Below are positions 587 through 11,104 of a DNA stretch of 64,000 bases, in pieces. Positions within the stretch are counted from its first letter, which is position 1; the number at the start of each line of letters is the position of its first letter. The position numbers and the translations under genes are program-made. The notes below the pieces were generated by a model that did no database searches, was not told the origin of the DNA, and saw nothing but the letters and a program-made list of their open reading frames with translations. The stretch lies in contig MKVX01000018.1 in NCBI GenBank assembly GCA_001899255.1, positions 249,150 through 313,149 of the forward strand, in the 5' to 3' direction. The DNA comes from Rhizobiales bacterium 62-47 (GTDB taxonomy: Bacteria; Pseudomonadota; Alphaproteobacteria; Rhizobiales; Xanthobacteraceae).

Positions 587-1780
587 ATGTCCGGTTCAGG
601 CACCGACAAAACAAAGACCGGCAAAACCATCGAAGGCCCCGTGGTGGTTCTGGTCGAACCGCAGCTCGGCGAGAATATCGGCATGGCGGCGCGCGCCATG
701 GGCAATTTCGGGCTGACGCGGCTGCGGATCGTCAACCCGCGCGACGGCTGGCCGAATCTCAGCGCGCAGCGGGCGGCGGCCGGGGCCGACCACATCCTCG
801 ATCGCGTCGAGCTGTTCGACACCGTGCAGGAGGCGGTGGCCGATTGCGCGCTGCTGTTTGCGACCACGGCGCGGGCGCACGATCAGGCCAAGCCGGTGGT
901 GGCGCCGGAAGCCGCCGTCAAGGAGATGGGCGGGCAGATCGCCGGCGGAGGCACCGTCGGCATCCTGTTCGGCCGCGAGCGCTACGGCCTGCAGAACGAG
1001 GAGGTGGCGCTCGCCGACCGCATCATCACCTATCCGGTTAATCCCGGCTTTGCCTCGCTCAATTTGGCGCAGGCGGTGCTGCTGCTCGGCTACGAGTGGT
1101 TCAAGCTGGCGACGCAGGGCGCGCTGCCGTTCGCCATGCCGGAGCGCTCCGAGCGCGCCTCGCAGCACCAGATGCAGGCGTTCTTCGACAATCTGGTGCG
1201 CGAACTCGACAAGGTGGAGTTTCTCCGCCCGGCCGAGAAGCGCGACACCATGCTGGTGAACCTGCGCAACATCTTCACCCGGATGGAGCCGACCAAGCAG
1301 GACATGCACACGCTGCACGGCGTGGTGATGGCGATTGCCGAAGGCCGCAAGGGGCCGGCCAAGGGCGGCGTGCTCGATGGCGCGCAGGCGACGCGGCTGC
1401 GGGCGCTGCTCGCCGAGCAGGGCGCGGGCGCCGACCCCTCGCAAAGCAGCAGCGTGCGCGGGCTGGCGCGGTTGCTACGGCGCAATCCCACCGATGCCGA
1501 ACGCATCCTGTGGAAGGCGCTGACCTCGGACCGGCGCTTCGCCGGGCAGTTCAAGCGGCAGACTCCGGTGGGGCGGCACATCCCGGACTTCGTGTCGTTC
1601 GTGCACCGCATCGCCATCGAGATCGTCAACGCCGACGAGAGCGAAGCCATTGCCAACGATCGCGCCGCGCGCAGCGCGTGGCTGGCGGCGCGCGACTATC
1701 GCGTCGTCGAACTCCAAGCCGCGGCGATCGAAGCCGATCTGGTGGATGTGTTGGATGGGTTGGCGGAGAGGGTGGGGTGA
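587..1780 (+). CDS. trmJ: TrmJ-type tRNA 2'-O-methyltransferase fused to a C-terminal DUF559 (Vsr-like) domain
   Basis: Residues 17-255 form a SPOUT methyltransferase: N-terminal VVLVEPQLGENIGMAARAM, then GRERYGLQNEE (129-139) and SLNLAQAV (157-164), the SpoU motifs that build the knotted SAM site. TrmJ enzymes methylate the ribose of C32/U32 in tRNA anticodon loops. Residues about 292-397 match the DUF559 endonuclease-like family (LLRRNPTDAERILWKAL, then PDF at 333-335). In active-looking members the core strand reads E-x-D-G, but here it is EIVNAD (345-350), so the nuclease chemistry is probably lost. TrmJ alone is usually 240-280 residues, so the 397-residue length reflects the fusion. The stop lies 12 bases from the convergent tcmP stop. 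Confidence 0.87.
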   Translation: MSGSGTDKTKTGKTIEGPVVVLVEPQLGENIGMAARAMGNFGLTRLRIVNPRDGWPNLSAQRAAAGADHILDRVELFDTVQEAVADCALLFATTARAHDQAKPVVAPEAAVKEMGGQIAGGGTVGILFGRERYGLQNEEVALADRIITYPVNPGFASLNLAQAVLLLGYEWFKLATQGALPFAMPERSERASQHQMQAFFDNLVRELDKVEFLRPAEKRDTMLVNLRNIFTRMEPTKQDMHTLHGVVMAIAEGRKGPAKGGVLDGAQATRLRALLAEQGAGADPSQSSSVRGLARLLRRNPTDAERILWKALTSDRRFAGQFKRQTPVGRHIPDFVSFVHRIAIEIVNADESEAIANDRAARSAWLAARDYRVVELQAAAIEADLVDVLDGLAERVG

Positions 1781-1792
1781 GGGGCTGTACGA

Positions 1793-2950
1793 TTACTTGT
1801 GCATTTTATAGTTTGGTTGCGGCACGCGCTTTCCGGGCTCCCACTCGGGAAAAATAATCTTTTGCTCAGTTCGGAGCCGGGCCGCAATTCGATTAACATC
1901 CGGAAGCCGCACTATGTGCTTTGCGAGTACTTGCGGCCAAATGTGTGCGTACTTGGCTGATGCGGGTGCAGCAGGCGTCAATTCCAAAAGCGTTTTTTCT
2001 GCCATCCTTCTCGCAGCGGACAGTTTGGTCTCGAGAACATTCGGAGCCATCTCGTGGAGAGATTCGAAAATCTCACGTTGACCAGTAATCGCTTCGGCAT
2101 GTTTAACCTTAGTTGCCGCCCGTGCTTTGGCCTGCTCGTGCAAGGCTTTCAATTGACAGTCCCTAAAAACTTCGATTCCTTTCGGGTGCCGCGTTGCGTA
2201 GCAGAGGCAGTAGAGGGCCCGGTCGCTTAGAGGTTTCAGAACGGTCGTCTCAGCGACGTAGTTGTAAGAACCTATTTTAGCCAAGCTCTCACCGAATGCA
2301 TCGACGAGGATGGCCTTTCGATCTTCAGAAGTTGCTCCTCGCTCTTCGGCCTGTTCTAGCTTTTTCCGCCAACCTCCATACGGGATCAGTTCGTCAACGC
2401 CTTGCTCAATGGCTGAGTCTTTCATGCTTGCTGCGCGATTGATGAAGTCGAACATAAAATTGAAGATCACCTCAGAATGATCACGCTGCAGCATCTTTGC
2501 CAGATCGTGCAAACGAAAGCGCCATCCTTTTGGATCGATGAAGAAGAATGCAAATGCCTGAGATGGAATAATTTCAAGAATTGCAGGAAGAGCTTTCAAA
2601 AAATCGTGGTGAAAGGTTTTCACCTCGACATCCGGGTATCGCGTAGCAACTCCAGCAAGACGGTCATAGGCCGCAGAATCTTGCTCAACCAGATAGGCAG
2701 ACATCTTCACCTCGCGCCCATTGGTTTTCCAGGTAGCCTTCGCCTGCCGTAGGGCGCGGAGCGCTATTCCGAATGAGGTGTCTTGAAATTGCTCATTTGC
2801 GCTTTGCCAAGGTCCTGCAAAGCCATCGACATATACGATGCGATCGTACCTGCTTGCCGTCTTATGAACGAGACGTTCGAGGTAGCGTTCTAAGAATACG
2901 TGCTTAACGTAGGCTTGTTCGCGACCCTGATAATCGTGGATCGCAACCAT
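1793..2950 (-). CDS. tcmP: Three-Cys-motif partner protein TcmP
   Basis: This 385-residue protein carries the hallmarks of the TcmP family: YVDGFAGPW (40-48) near the N-terminus and FFFIDP (135-140), which together resemble a class I methyltransferase-like Rossmann core (SAM binding is an inference). The C-terminal third is rich in charged helices and ends in a winged-helix-like segment. The family is known mainly from its genomic pairing with three-Cys DUF5131 proteins, and exactly such a gene lies directly upstream with its stop codon abutting this ATG, so the two are co-transcribed. Biochemical role unknown. Base composition is unusually AT-rich: by hand, 26 of 60 bases at 2401-2460 are G/C, against 37 of 60 at 1201-1260 in trmJ. 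Confidence 0.85.
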   Translation of the reverse strand: MVAIHDYQGREQAYVKHVFLERYLERLVHKTASRYDRIVYVDGFAGPWQSANEQFQDTSFGIALRALRQAKATWKTNGREVKMSAYLVEQDSAAYDRLAGVATRYPDVEVKTFHHDFLKALPAILEIIPSQAFAFFFIDPKGWRFRLHDLAKMLQRDHSEVIFNFMFDFINRAASMKDSAIEQGVDELIPYGGWRKKLEQAEERGATSEDRKAILVDAFGESLAKIGSYNYVAETTVLKPLSDRALYCLCYATRHPKGIEVFRDCQLKALHEQAKARAATKVKHAEAITGQREIFESLHEMAPNVLETKLSAARRMAEKTLLELTPAAPASAKYAHIWPQVLAKHIVRLPDVNRIAARLRTEQKIIFPEWEPGKRVPQPNYKMHK

Positions 2951-3697
2951 CTACTCGGCCGCCATAAAAAATTTTCGGCGAGTCGGAAATTGATCCCATT
3001 CGCGTCCGTCCAGTTCTCGCCCGCCCGACTTAGGACGCATCCCGCCCCACTGCTTGAAGAAAAACGCGACTCCTTTTTCAGTGCATTGGTCGCGTATATC
3101 GCGAACCCATTCGACGCGCATCTCGCGAGCGCCGGGGCCGCTTTCACCACCGACAATCACCCAATCAATTCCGTCTAGGTCGAGAATCCCCACATCATCG
3201 ATAAGAGGTTCTATCGAAAGAAACCGTACCCCGGCAGGTGCTTCTTGAAGGTGTTGAATGCGAGCCCTACGCTTTCCGTCTTCAACGGAAACGCCGCACC
3301 AAATGTGTGTCGGTCCGCGATCATTTCCGTAACGGGAGCGAAGAAAGTTTCGCATAATCGACGAGCGTTTGGTCAAAATTTGAAATGTATGCCAGTCGGC
3401 CTTTTCCATGGTGTCGAAGACCTTTGAGATGAACTCCCTCGGGACTTGCTTATGAAAAAGGTCACTCATCGAGTTGACGAACACCATTTTCGGACGGCGC
3501 CACAAAAGCGGTTGCGCGATACGCTCTGGCCGCAACGTCAAGTCAAAGCCGCTTTCGAATGGATGGCCGGGTGTGCCTCGAAAACGTTCTGAAAATCTCT
3601 CAGCGTAGCAGTGGTCGCAGCCAGCGCTGATTTTTGTGCATCCCGTAACCGGGTTCCACGTTGTGTCCGTCCATTCAATTGCGGTGACATTTGCCAT
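2951..3697 (-). CDS. Three-Cys-motif protein, DUF5131 (phage Gp37/Gp68 family)
   Basis: 248 residues beginning MANVTAIEWTDTTWNPVTGC, the standard N-terminus of the family, so I prefer the ATG at 3695-3697 over the in-frame start 33 bases upstream. Cysteines 20, 27 and 30 form C-x6-C-x2-C followed by YAERF, the three-Cys signature that suggests an Fe-S cluster. Later conserved segments include FVNSMSDLFH, ILTKRS and VIVGGESGPGAR; the last is common to the family. The fold is likely a radical-SAM-like barrel, but the spacing differs from the canonical CxxxCxxC, so this is inference. It is the first gene of a two-gene unit with tcmP. Sporadic in bacteria and phages; function unknown. Confidence 0.85.
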   Translation of the reverse strand: MANVTAIEWTDTTWNPVTGCTKISAGCDHCYAERFSERFRGTPGHPFESGFDLTLRPERIAQPLLWRRPKMVFVNSMSDLFHKQVPREFISKVFDTMEKADWHTFQILTKRSSIMRNFLRSRYGNDRGPTHIWCGVSVEDGKRRARIQHLQEAPAGVRFLSIEPLIDDVGILDLDGIDWVIVGGESGPGAREMRVEWVRDIRDQCTEKGVAFFFKQWGGMRPKSGGRELDGREWDQFPTRRKFFMAAE

Positions 3698-3851
3698 TGC
3701 AGAACCGAGAACAAATTGAGAACATGGCATACAACTCTAGATGGTGAAGGTAAACCTCGTCAGTAAATTTTGCTGAAACGTTTGGTCGTCCCGGAAGAAT
3801 AGCGGACGGTCGCATGAACCGGTGAGCCGAGATCGAGGGCGACGCTCCCCG

Positions 3852-4514
3852 CTATTTTCTCTTCCCTCTTTCCCTCAGCGCCGGGTGATCGGCCTCCACC
3901 GGCAGGTTCGCATCGATCACCATGTCCAGCGCTTCCTGCGGGGCGCGGTCGATGTCCACGCCGCCGCGGCGCATTTCCTTGAGCGCGCCGCGAATGGCTT
4001 GCTCGCGCGAGGCCCATTCGAACCCGGTCATCCCGCGTCCCGGTGATCGGAATCTGCCACGCCGTCCCATCGCTTCGAGCCGCGCCATCTTCACCACCTG
4101 CAGCGCTTGCATCAGCTTGTCGAGATCGACGCCTGGCGTTTCTTCCAATTCCTGGATCATGCGCTCGGCGATCGCCCGCAGCCGTTCTGACAGTGTGCGC
4201 AGTTTCTGGCGTCGTCCGTGACGGGCGGTCGGGATCAGGTCCCATGGGCGCGGCGCATGGAGCGGTCGCTGCCAGCCGTAGTCGCGCTTCCAGTTGGTGA
4301 TGTTGCTGTGGGGGATGCCCACCTTCAAACCGATCTCGCGATAGCTCAGCCCGGTGTTTTCGACGAGGTAGCGCACTTTCGCGACCGTCATATCGGTGTG
4401 GATGCGCCGCTTGCCGGGTGGCCGGGGACCGTCGATCGCGGGCGGTCCCTCCGCCGGTTCGTCGGGCTTGATGCGGAGGCGGGTGATGACGGGAGGAATA
4501 TGAGGCAGGATCAT
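3852..4514 (-). CDS. Conserved hypothetical protein with helix-turn-helix segment
   Basis: 220 residues from the ATG at 4512-4514; an upstream in-frame start would add 33 unconserved-looking residues. Around residues 43-75 a segment (TVAKVRYLVENTGLSYREIG, then VGIPHSNITNWKRDYGW) reads as a recruited helix-turn-helix of the kind seen in small terminase or transposase-like DNA-binding proteins. The rest is basic and helical, rich in Arg, without catalytic motifs. No obvious Shine-Dalgarno precedes the ATG; an AT-rich palindrome ATAAT-CCT-ATTAT lies just upstream. GC content looks like the host genome rather than the tcmP insert. I do not recognise a named family; a DNA-binding regulator is the simplest guess. 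Confidence 0.6.
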   Translation of the reverse strand: MILPHIPPVITRLRIKPDEPAEGPPAIDGPRPPGKRRIHTDMTVAKVRYLVENTGLSYREIGLKVGIPHSNITNWKRDYGWQRPLHAPRPWDLIPTARHGRRQKLRTLSERLRAIAERMIQELEETPGVDLDKLMQALQVVKMARLEAMGRRGRFRSPGRGMTGFEWASREQAIRGALKEMRRGGVDIDRAPQEALDMVIDANLPVEADHPALRERGKRK

Positions 4515-4676: not shown

Positions 4677-4997
4677 TTACCCCGCCTTCACCTGCTGAAT
4701 GGCCTGGATCATCAGTTCGTCCATCTTCACGCGAACCTGCTGCGGGGTGATCGCGACGCCCTTGGCGCTGAAGTCGCCGGCGACCTTGTTCAACACGTCG
4801 TCATCGCCGGCTTCCTCGAAATCCGCCGCGACGACCTCCTTGGCGTAGTTGGCGGCGTCGTCGCCACTCTTGCCGAGCAGTTCCGCCGCCCAAAGGCCGA
4901 GCAGCCGGTTGCGGCGCGCCATGGCTTTGAACTTCTGCTCCTCGTCGAGCGCGAACTTCTTCTCGAAACCTTCTTCGCGTTTGTCGAATGTGGTCAT
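4677..4997 (-). CDS. F1-ATPase inhibitor zeta subunit (DUF1476)
   Basis: 106 residues starting MTTFDKREEGFEKKFALDEE, a near-diagnostic N-terminus for the DUF1476 family, shown in Paracoccus denitrificans to be the zeta subunit that inhibits the F1-ATPase by inserting its N-terminal helix. The all-helical remainder (ARRNRLLGLWAAELLG, ending in KMDELMIQAIQQVKAG) fits the family and its usual length of about 105. The ATG at 4995-4997 is chosen over an upstream TTG that would add 30 atypical residues. It is a single gene, divergent from purC. Confidence 0.9.
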   Translation of the reverse strand: MTTFDKREEGFEKKFALDEEQKFKAMARRNRLLGLWAAELLGKSGDDAANYAKEVVAADFEEAGDDDVLNKVAGDFSAKGVAITPQQVRVKMDELMIQAIQQVKAG

Positions 4998-8899: not shown

Positions 8900-11104
8900 T
8901 TGACCGAGCCTAAAATCACTCCCGAACTGGTCGCCAGCCATGGTCTCAAGCCAGACGAGTATGAGCGCATCCTCAAGCTGATCGGGCGGGAGCCGACCTT
9001 CACCGAACTCGGCATCTTCTCCGCGATGTGGAACGAGCACTGTTCCTACAAGTCGTCGCGGATCCATCTGCGCGGGCTGCCCACCACGGCGCCGTGGGTT
9101 CTGGTCGGGCCGGGCGAGAATGCCGGCGTCATCGATATTGGCGACGGGCAGGCCATCGTCTTCAAGATGGAAAGCCACAACCACCCGAGCTTCATCGAGC
9201 CATATCAGGGCGCGACCACCGGCGTTGGCGGCATCCTGCGCGACGTCTTCACCATGGGCGCGCGGCCGATTGCCTGTCTCAACGCACTGAGCTTCGGCGC
9301 GCCGGAACATCCCAAGACGCGGCATCTGGTGAGCGGCGTGGTCGCCGGCGTCGGCGGTTACGGCAATTCGTTCGGCGTGCCGACGGTCGGCGGGCAGGTG
9401 CGCTTCCACACCCGTTACGACGGCAACATTCTCGTCAACGCCATGGCGGTGGGATTGGCGCGCACCGACGGCATCTTCCTGGCGGCGGCGTCCGGCGTGA
9501 ACATGCCGATCGTCTATCTGGGCTCCAAGACCGGCCGCGACGGCATCCACGGCGCGACCATGGCGTCGGCGGAGTTCGACGACGACAGCGACGAGAAGCG
9601 CCCCACGGTGCAGGTCGGCGATCCGTTCGCCGAGAAGCTGCTGCTCGAAGCCTGTCTCGAAATCATGGCGAAGGATTGCGTTATCGCCATCCAGGACATG
9701 GGAGCGGCGGGGCTGACCTGTTCGGCGGTGGAGATGGGCGCCAAGGGCGATCTCGGCGTCGATCTCGATCTCGACGCGGTACCGACGCGCGAAACTGGCA
9801 TGAGCGCCTATGAGATGATGCTCTCCGAAAGTCAGGAGCGCATGTTGATGGTGCTGAGGCCCGAGAAGGAAAAGGAAGCCGAGGCGATCTTCCGTAAGTG
9901 GGGCCTCGATTTCGCGGTGGTCGGCTACACCACGCCGACGAAACGTTTTGTCGTCAAGCACGGCGGCAAGGTGATGGCTGATCTGCCGATCAAGGAATTG
10001 GGCGACGAAGCGCCGCTTTACGATCGTCCGCACGTCGCGACACCGCCGCTCGCTATCATTCACGCGCGCGACGTGACGCCGCCGATGCCGGTTTCCGATG
10101 CGTTGGAAAAGCTGATCGCGACGCCGGATATGTGCTCGCGGCGCTGGGTGTGGGAGCAGTACGATCACATCATCGGCGGCAACACCGTGCAGCGCCCCGG
10201 TGGCGATGCCGCCGTCGTGCGTATCGAGGACGGCCCCAAGGGCTTGGCCATCACGGTGGATGTCACGCCGCGTTACTGCGAGGCCGATCCGTTCGAGGGC
10301 GGCAAGCAGGCGGTCGCCGAAGCCTGGCGCAATGTCACCGCCGTGGGCGGCCGTCCGTTGGCAATCACCGACAATCTCAATTTCGGCAATCCCGAGCGGC
10401 CCGAGATCATGGGGCAATTCGTCGGCTGCCTGAAGGGCATCGGGGAAGCTTGCCGCGCACTGGATTTCCCGGTCGTGTCCGGCAACGTCTCGCTCTACAA
10501 CGAAACCAACGGCCGCGGCATTCTGCCGACGCCGTCGATCGGTGGCGTCGGACTGCTGGACGATTTCACCAAGTCGGCGACGCTGGCGTTCAAGGCGGAA
10601 GGTCAGGCGATCCTGTTGATCGGCGACACGCAGGGCTGGCTCGGTCAGTCGGTCTATCTGCGCGACGTCTGCGGGCGCGAAGAGGGTGCGCCGCCACCGG
10701 TCGATCTCGCCGCCGAGAAACGCAACGGCGATGTCGTGCGCGGCATGATCCATGCGGGCACCGCAACCGCTGTGCACGACCTCTCAGACGGTGGTCTGTT
10801 GATCGCGCTGGCGGAGATGGCGATGGCCAGCGGCATCGGCGCACATCTCGACGCGCCGCCGGCTGCAATCGTGCCGCATGCGTGGTGGTTCGGTGAGGAC
10901 CAGGCGCGCTACGTCGTTACGGTTCGCGATTCCGATCTGCTGGGCGTGCTGAGCAAGCTGAAAGCCGTTGAAGTGCCGTGCGTTCAGATCGGCAAGACCG
11001 GCGGCGACGCCATTGCCATCGCCGGCGAGAGGCCGGTGAAAGTCGAGGCGCTGCGCAGCGGCTTCGAAAGCTGGCTGCCGGATTATATGGCCGGCAAAAA
11101 CTAA
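8900..11104 (+). CDS. purL: Phosphoribosylformylglycinamidine synthase subunit PurL
   Basis: 734 residues from a TTG at 8900, which is preceded by GAGGAA at good spacing; the translation [20 protein letters not shown] matches the known PurL start. An ATG at 8825 would add 25 arginine-rich residues and is less likely. Signatures: [12 protein letters not shown] (ATP and substrate loop), [18 protein letters not shown], and glycine-rich GIGGVLRDVF-like [10 protein letters not shown]. It performs the ATP-dependent amidation of FGAR with PurS and PurQ. Its stop codon overlaps the stop of the convergent acyltransferase gene (sequence CTAA). Confidence 0.95.

Follow-up and report, generated by a model that had tools for sequence, protein, structure and literature searches.

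The occurrence of a markedly AT-rich gene pair between housekeeping genes of Rhizobiales bacterium 62-47 raises the question of how this pair arrived there and what its two products do. The pair is located within a stretch of 64,000 nucleotides (contig MKVX01000018.1; hereafter, the window) and consists of a gene encoding a DUF5131 protein of 248 amino acids (2951..3697, minus strand) and the gene tcmP, encoding a protein of 385 amino acids (1793..2950, minus strand). The explanation favored here, to which about an even chance of being correct is given, is that these genes represent a horizontally acquired two-enzyme anti-phage nucleic-acid modification module featuring an interchangeable methyltransferase. 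The pair is already catalogued in PADLOC, where the unproven candidates PDC-M30 and PDC-M41 comprise the same two proteins; its kind is thus known and uncharacterized, no mechanism was described in the papers found on these candidates, and DUF5131 and TcmP are still labelled as unknown. Added by this study are an enzymatic reading of both proteins, namely a predicted radical S-adenosylmethionine (SAM) core and an RlmJ-type partner with named catalytic residues, and a pattern of partner exchange. These enzyme assignments make an unexplained defense candidate open to direct tests.

Both open reading frames were recovered as described in the initial annotation, with 0 nt between the DUF5131 stop codon and the tcmP ATG at 2950. 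A second in-frame ATG of the DUF5131 gene is present at 3730, yet the methionine at 3697 represents the alignment start for most relatives. The DUF5131 protein was assigned to PF07505 (Pfam search, E 8.5e-98) and the TcmP protein to TIGR04474 (NCBIfam search, E 2.1e-41; 142.6 bits, with a curated cut-off of 53). Regarding the PADLOC profiles, DUF5131 matched PDC-M41B (2e-103) and PDC-M30B (8e-103), TcmP matched PDC-M30A (8e-12) better than PDC-M41A (2e-5), and the window pair has the neighboring DUF5131 and TcmP proteins by which PDC-M30 and PDC-M41 are defined. The previously noticed three-cysteine motif C20-x6-C27-x2-C30 (codons 20-30, 3608..3640, minus strand, as computed from the open reading frame) is as described; its cysteines are invariant in all 71 aligned relatives, and it represents the presumed [4Fe-4S] site. 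Between 1700 and 4000, no sigma-70-like promoter sites were detected, compared to 1.6 in shuffled sequences, and no Rfam match reached the gathering threshold within the 64-kb window.

In its composition, the pair differs clearly from its surroundings. The guanine-plus-cytosine (GC) content of positions 1793-3730 is 51.4%, and among 1242 same-length segments across the 64 kb (mean 61.9%, standard deviation 2.2), one was as low, overlapping the insert; all segments below 56% GC start between 1351 and 2501 and hence overlap it as well. The hand counts from which the pair had been called AT-richer than its neighbors (26 of 60 versus 37 of 60) were exact, and nowhere in the window is the GC content lower than in the stretch with the pair. 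At third codon positions, GC fractions of 0.52 (tcmP) and 0.56 (DUF5131) were obtained, compared to 0.79-0.89 in four neighboring genes. Relative to the empty site of the genus mate G002, the insert extends over 1786..3864 (blastn breakpoints 1785 and 3865), and 34 nt lie between the two points at which homology stops and restarts. The left flank of the insertion spot, trmJ (587..1780, plus strand), encodes a TrmJ-DUF559 fusion and was found in all eight genomes of the genus. The right flank is a resident gene (3852..4391, minus strand) that is helix-turn-helix-like by eye, had no Pfam family above the cut-off, and occurs in G002 without the pair. It is followed by the core flanks, a DUF1476-type gene (4677..4997, minus strand; by position and conservation in relatives) and purC (from 5303), DUF1476, purC, and icd being presumptive names, some of them those of the initial annotation, and not family-search assignments.

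A comparison of the icd-trmJ-purC interval in relatives had been set beforehand as a check on the proposed transfer, and the pair was found at this place in none of them. Beside trmJ, it was absent from all seven genus mates, three of which have an empty site (G001, G002, and G005, with 72 nt in G001 and 64 nt in G005 between trmJ and the DUF1476-type gene), while the remaining four, G004 included, carry other DNA in the interval. It was likewise absent beside trmJ from the 20 relatives with fetched stretches, several of which did not reach the far flank. At the insert ends, no target-site duplication was recognized. Among 152 DUF5131 proteins compared, those closest to the window's originate from Sphingobium and Xanthobacter (75-76%; Sphingobium 75.6%), whereas the DUF5131 of the genus mate G005 is 61% identical and resides at another genomic place, 383 bp from a tRNA-Ser gene. 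Because of the empty sites in genus mates, the foreign composition, and the closest DUF5131 being found in Sphingobium and not in G005, it is concluded that the pair was acquired horizontally and inserted at a variable spot beside trmJ, as its position between housekeeping genes had suggested. Neither of the two outcomes named in advance as contrary evidence was observed, i.e., presence at this site in all relatives with normal composition, or assignment of both proteins to a characterized housekeeping pathway.

Both genes are sporadically distributed, as the initial annotation had stated for bacteria and phages, and are found in many bacterial phyla, phages, and plasmids. Among 199 sampled genomes of the order, DUF5131 was detected in 41, TcmP in 28, and both in 26, and in all 26 the two genes are neighbors (Fisher p 8e-20). 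Concerning the two TcmP exceptions, the gene of G202 lies at a contig edge, and that of G152 had no DUF5131 in the 10.5 kb fetched. For locus comparisons, 38 of the 46 non-window DUF5131 places in this sample were fetched, plus two from the genus mate G005; in addition, the best 80 of 588 candidates were taken as named relatives, which lean towards the window's own subfamily. A TcmP match was present in 69 of these 80. This number counts a fusion (L178), a weak match lying 2.9 kb away in L181, one at 1.6 kb in L190, and a weakly matching fragment in L210; among the 11 loci lacking a match, four end within 140 bp of the gene. Gene order is variable. TcmP lies downstream on the same strand in 16, upstream on the same strand in 7, and convergent in 4 of 27 cellular pairs, and the first TcmP match in the 69 named loci lies downstream on the same strand in 47, upstream on the same strand in 21 (L178 included), and upstream on the opposite strand in one. 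The fusion, found in one of 80 named relatives and originating from Latescibacterota (L178:1161-3065), is a natural one, in which a single open reading frame of 634 amino acids encodes DUF5131 followed by TcmP. Linkage of TcmP to DUF5131 is thus near-obligate.

The reverse does not apply: 14 of 41 cellular loci and 27 of 32 viral ones have DUF5131 but no TcmP, although contig ends truncate some of them. Among 50,697 phage records, DUF5131 was present in 161 and TcmP in nine, all of them Gordonia phages, the TcmP query being far more divergent than that for DUF5131. Solo DUF5131 proteins are partly different in size: 12 of 14 cellular ones comprise 314-467 amino acids versus 250-295 in the 27 paired ones, while viral solo proteins overlap the paired range. 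On a DUF5131 tree with 151 rows, from which L178 and sequences below 200 amino acids were excluded and in which six sequences truncated at contig ends carry no label, the distribution of paired and solo forms requires 11 changes, compared to about 39 in shuffles. For ten solo loci, a permissive TcmP search within 1.6 kb (open reading frames of at least 140 amino acids) yielded nothing beyond the matches already known. At five loci (L164, L185, L208, L231, and L095), TcmP is split into two open reading frames while DUF5131 is open, which may represent decay of the partner or assembly errors.

The two proteins of the pair have diverged very differently. In 55 of the 80 loci, selected as matched pairs by a full-length TcmP and a DUF5131 of up to 340 amino acids (the fusion L178 left out), the median identity was 57% for DUF5131 and 19% for TcmP, and correlation between the two identity matrices was only weak (r 0.096, a value reached in 51 of 2000 permutations). 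In the loci L187 and L184, the DUF5131 genes share 90.6% DNA identity over 737 nt, while the TcmPs are 22.6% identical over 146 residues; beyond the DUF5131 gene, the sole other DNA in common in the stretches compared is an upstream tRNA-Ser gene. Likewise, the DUF5131s of L189/L186 and L198/L199 are 81-85% identical and their TcmPs far diverged, while matching TcmPs were retained in L172/L167 and L177/L175. The window TcmP is nearest, among 90, to that of L107 (62%), the DUF5131 of which ranks 115th of 152 (47%). Conversely, the window DUF5131 is nearest to that of L160, the two TcmPs of which are 23-25% identical to the window's over part of their length. Counting against exchange, identity to the window DUF5131 and identity to the window TcmP were correlated in a comparison of 85 loci (rho 0.34, p 0.002). 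Overall, there is evidence that a conserved core, predicted to be a radical-SAM enzyme, travels with interchangeable methyltransferase partners. Independently of how the function of the pair is explained, the exchange might only be apparent, resulting from differential loss from ancestral two-TcmP arrays with no recombination. Such arrays do exist, in L160, L162, and the plasmid pSymA, the latter with one TcmP per PADLOC class. This possibility is considered a minority one, as the DNA likeness of L187 and L184 runs along the DUF5131 gene and ends before the TcmP gene begins, and as it poorly explains why the window TcmP has its nearest counterpart in L107, a locus with a distant DUF5131. In L160:10001-12911 and L162:9998-12904, the two TcmP genes come after DUF5131 and differ in length.

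Concerning the chemistry of the conserved partner, DUF5131 is a predicted radical-SAM enzyme with an atypical CX6CX2C cluster motif. Its structure model adopts the partial TIM-barrel fold of radical-SAM proteins, with C20, C27, and C30 following strands 12-14 and 17-19, i.e., in the loop after the first strands that would be expected of this class. The nearest fold is that of a DNA repair lyase, spore photoproduct lyase (SPL), and the cysteine motif meets C90/C94/C97 of SPL in 15 aligned columns of an alignment that is itself not significant. DUF5131 was therefore not filed as an SPL family member; the likeness rests on the fold. In addition, DUF5131 differs from SPL in its motif (CX6CX2C versus CX3CX2C), in having Ser76 at the place of the catalytic Cys140 (placed by spacing, not superposition), and in being about 95 residues shorter. 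The TIGR04471 profile (radical SAM mobile pair protein A) was matched by all 71 DUF5131 proteins and by that of the window with E 1e-23 and 84 bits, below the cut-off of 355. By its name, TIGR04471 is also half of a mobile pair; its partner, however, is another radical-SAM protein and not TcmP. Among solved structures, phmmer searches with each protein and an hmmsearch with the DUF5131 profile gave nothing credible. GP88 (PF17338) was weakly matched by 15 of the 71 DUF5131 proteins (best 6e-6) and is a possible distant relative.

TcmP, by contrast, could be related to a characterized enzyme family by profile comparison. It belongs to the class I SAM methyltransferases and is a homolog of RlmJ (hhalign probability 95.5, E 1.6e-8; 55 versus 11 sequences), an rRNA methyltransferase that also represents its nearest fold; searched against solved structures, the TcmP profile gave weak matches, RlmJ among them at E about 1. 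K16 and D139 are present in all 55 sequences and align with the catalytic Lys18 and Asp164 of RlmJ, the places of which they take in the window protein. Motif IV reads DPKG in the window and DPxG in most of the 55 sequences, with Gln for Pro in 13. RlmJ, the 23S rRNA m6A2030 methyltransferase, has DPP(Y/F) instead. About 50 RlmJ columns, from motif I to the Gly-Ser-Pro segment, are without a TcmP counterpart, and it is in this stretch that the RlmJ study locates the inserted helical subdomain (PMC3814359). The N-terminal tail, where RlmJ has Tyr4 and His6 of motif X, falls outside the confident alignment, and TcmPs are diverse among themselves (median identity 19%). The initial annotation had suggested a coupled Fe-S and SAM-type enzyme pair. 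This suggestion gains from the radical-SAM fold, the RlmJ homology, the fusion in one of 80 relatives, and the presence of both genes in 26 of 28 TcmP genomes, the cluster itself being predicted.

As to the benefit of the pair, its genomic context points to defense. Neighbors of 20 pairs (140 proteins) matched 35 PADLOC families, compared to nine matched by 136 control proteins from the same contigs (four of L255 left out; proteins above 900 amino acids excluded from both sets). Among the matches listed are TIR, Pycsar, type I specificity, phospholipase effector, DrmD, AbiTii, and LmuA families. Other cargo was also found at the variable spot downstream of trmJ: G006 carries a TPR-caspase-domain protein, and G012 a transposase-like gene (by eye) plus a gene of 51% GC with a weak MtlR match. 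PifA is a phage T7 exclusion protein, and in G026, belonging to another genus, a KAP NTPase gene of 52% GC (L039:2558-4858; PifA profile E 3e-124) occupies the same junction as the insert, between trmJ and the helix-turn-helix-like gene. Core-gene defense hotspots such as cDHS1 of Pseudomonas aeruginosa are described as carrying variable cargo between fixed core genes with no obvious mobile element (PMC10250203), as is the case here; the window spot differs from cDHS1 in its flanks (trmJ, and the DUF1476-type gene with purC) and in PifA being the only known phage-exclusion type seen. At the trmJ spot of G032, a 497-amino-acid gene of 53% GC with a likely signal peptide by eye (L046:4493-5986) had no Pfam or PADLOC match.

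On pSymA of Sinorhizobium meliloti (L307:14083-19903), DUF5131, a PDC-M30A TcmP, a PDC-M41A TcmP, and a PDC-S28 helicase stand in a row. The pSymA record analyzed has no gene table for this region; judging from position and annotation, the PDC-M41A TcmP and the helicase are probably SMa2243 and Hna SMa2245, PDC-S28 then being Hna, and both genes were reported to change together with NolR (PMC12445080). By its place, the gene adjoining the Sinorhizobium module is thus hna, which is proven to act in defense. In the Gordonia phage Fairfaxidum (one phage map), the pair is convergent and lies between integrase and immunity repressor, a usual place for lysogen-protecting genes. In a Pseudomonas aeruginosa survey, 68.8% of the 32 strains with PDC-M30 were phage-resistant, which is a correlation only (PMC10855318). 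A role in defense or nucleic-acid modification, as previously put forward, is therefore supported by context and by fold, and remains predicted. The papers on PDC-M63 and PDC-M32 concern other candidates than the DUF5131-TcmP pair.

Under the favored explanation, the module would have been inserted as cargo at the variable spot beside trmJ. C20, C27, and C30 of DUF5131 would hold a [4Fe-4S] cluster cleaving SAM to a 5'-deoxyadenosyl radical, TcmP would use SAM with Lys16 and Asp139 as an RlmJ-type methyltransferase, and the two enzymes may share one nucleic-acid substrate, on which they would work one after the other or as a complex. The constant chemistry would come from DUF5131, and the choice of target from the fast-diverging, exchangeable TcmP. 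The benefit would most likely be phage protection, in which either self is marked or foreign nucleic acid is marked or damaged. A bolder proposal, held tentatively, is an undescribed immunity with interchangeable parts, in which an SPL-like CX6CX2C radical-SAM core would perform one fixed nucleic-acid reaction and swappable RlmJ-type methyltransferases (single, tandem, or fused) would choose the target and complete the mark. If true, this would represent a two-step radical and methyl modification, the specificity of which is exchanged between lineages like type I restriction specificity subunits. Confirmation of the enzyme roles would mean that radical chemistry in prokaryotic immunity reaches beyond viperin, and that a conserved enzyme with exchangeable methyltransferases offers immune systems a new way to change specificity.

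Several findings weigh against the favored explanation. Canonical radical-SAM proteins have the spacing CX3CXPhiC, to which CX6CX2C does not conform; furthermore, the residue before the third cysteine is not aromatic, being His29 in the window and, in most relatives, His or Asn. None of the 71 DUF5131 relatives matched the general radical-SAM model of Pfam at E up to 1, the best Foldseek match of the model reached E 4.7e-3 at most, and the hhalign comparison with SPL (four SPL-family sequences) was significant neither locally nor globally (P 0.036, probability 1.4). Fold matches fix no substrate for either protein, and an N6-adenine target of TcmP is not assured because its motif IV is not DPPY. 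On the side of context, the neighbor comparison employed one control set and counted families, not proteins, with mad3 and mad8 in both sets, and seven hand-picked neighbors of the 140, checked singly, had no match. The link to PifA and the position within a phage each represent one case only. The PADLOC listing itself rests on guilt by embedding, by which PDCs were found, most of them awaiting testing (PMC12988326). Two other unproven PADLOC candidates had no defense activity in one host (PMC12409345), and searches of the available collection of papers found no experiment on any DUF5131 or TcmP member.

The evidence also has to be read against three other functions of the pair. It is rather unlikely that DUF5131 acts like viperin and produces an altered nucleotide or a small molecule as a poison of phage polymerases, with TcmP methylating, releasing, or controlling the product and no polymeric nucleic acid as direct substrate. 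Viperin is a single gene with the canonical CX3CX2C motif that acts on nucleotides and has no methyltransferase partner, in contrast to the CX6CX2C motif and TcmP partner of DUF5131, and no viperin profile was among the NCBIfam or PADLOC matches of the pair at E up to 1. A combination of self-mark and attack, as in restriction-modification or toxin-antitoxin systems, would have one enzyme damaging nucleic acid and the other protecting the host copy, and the genes would therefore be kept linked in any order. The persistence of linkage while order and strand vary in the 27 cellular pairs and 69 named loci fits this arrangement, as does the resemblance of partner exchange to specificity exchange; we nevertheless regard it as unlikely, given that the Pfam search revealed a nuclease domain in neither protein and that the many solo DUF5131 loci, although mostly separate lineages, indicate a protein probably not lethal alone.

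Finally, the pair could serve DNA or RNA repair or a housekeeping-type modification on mobile elements, with no part in defense. The nearest folds, those of a lyase repairing DNA and a methyltransferase acting on rRNA, would suit such a function. DUF5131 also occurs in phages and on plasmids, and a phage carrying it might apply it to its own genome. This appears distinctly unlikely in view of the sporadic occurrence (41 of 199 genomes), the low GC content, the TIR, Pycsar, and type I specificity matches of neighbors, the Hna-type helicase beside the pSymA module, and the junction shared with a PifA-type gene.

Regarding other insertion sites, tRNA-Ser genes represent a recurrent one: at four loci, that of the genus mate G005 among them, the start of the pair lies at a distance of 370-464 bp from such a gene (tRNA-Ser-adjacent loci: L187:9542-9631, L184:9448-9537, L126 about 8920-9007, and L097). 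A predicted tRNA gene lies within 1.5 kb in seven of 95 paired and none of 25 solo loci; two of the seven (L202 and L227) have it inside the gene span, where it is possibly spurious, and tRNA-Ser accounts for four of the five others. The background amounted to three tRNA genes in 390 kb of control DNA and seven in 857 kb of outer parts of the same loci. As a usual target of the pair, tRNA genes were rejected, since their association is real but concerns a minority, and none was detected at the window site by Rfam. In the flanking trmJ gene, the fused DUF559 domain (Pfam E 9e-16) lies in a part covered by matches in all eight genus members and in many members of the family; in some other family members, matches are confined to the TrmJ part.
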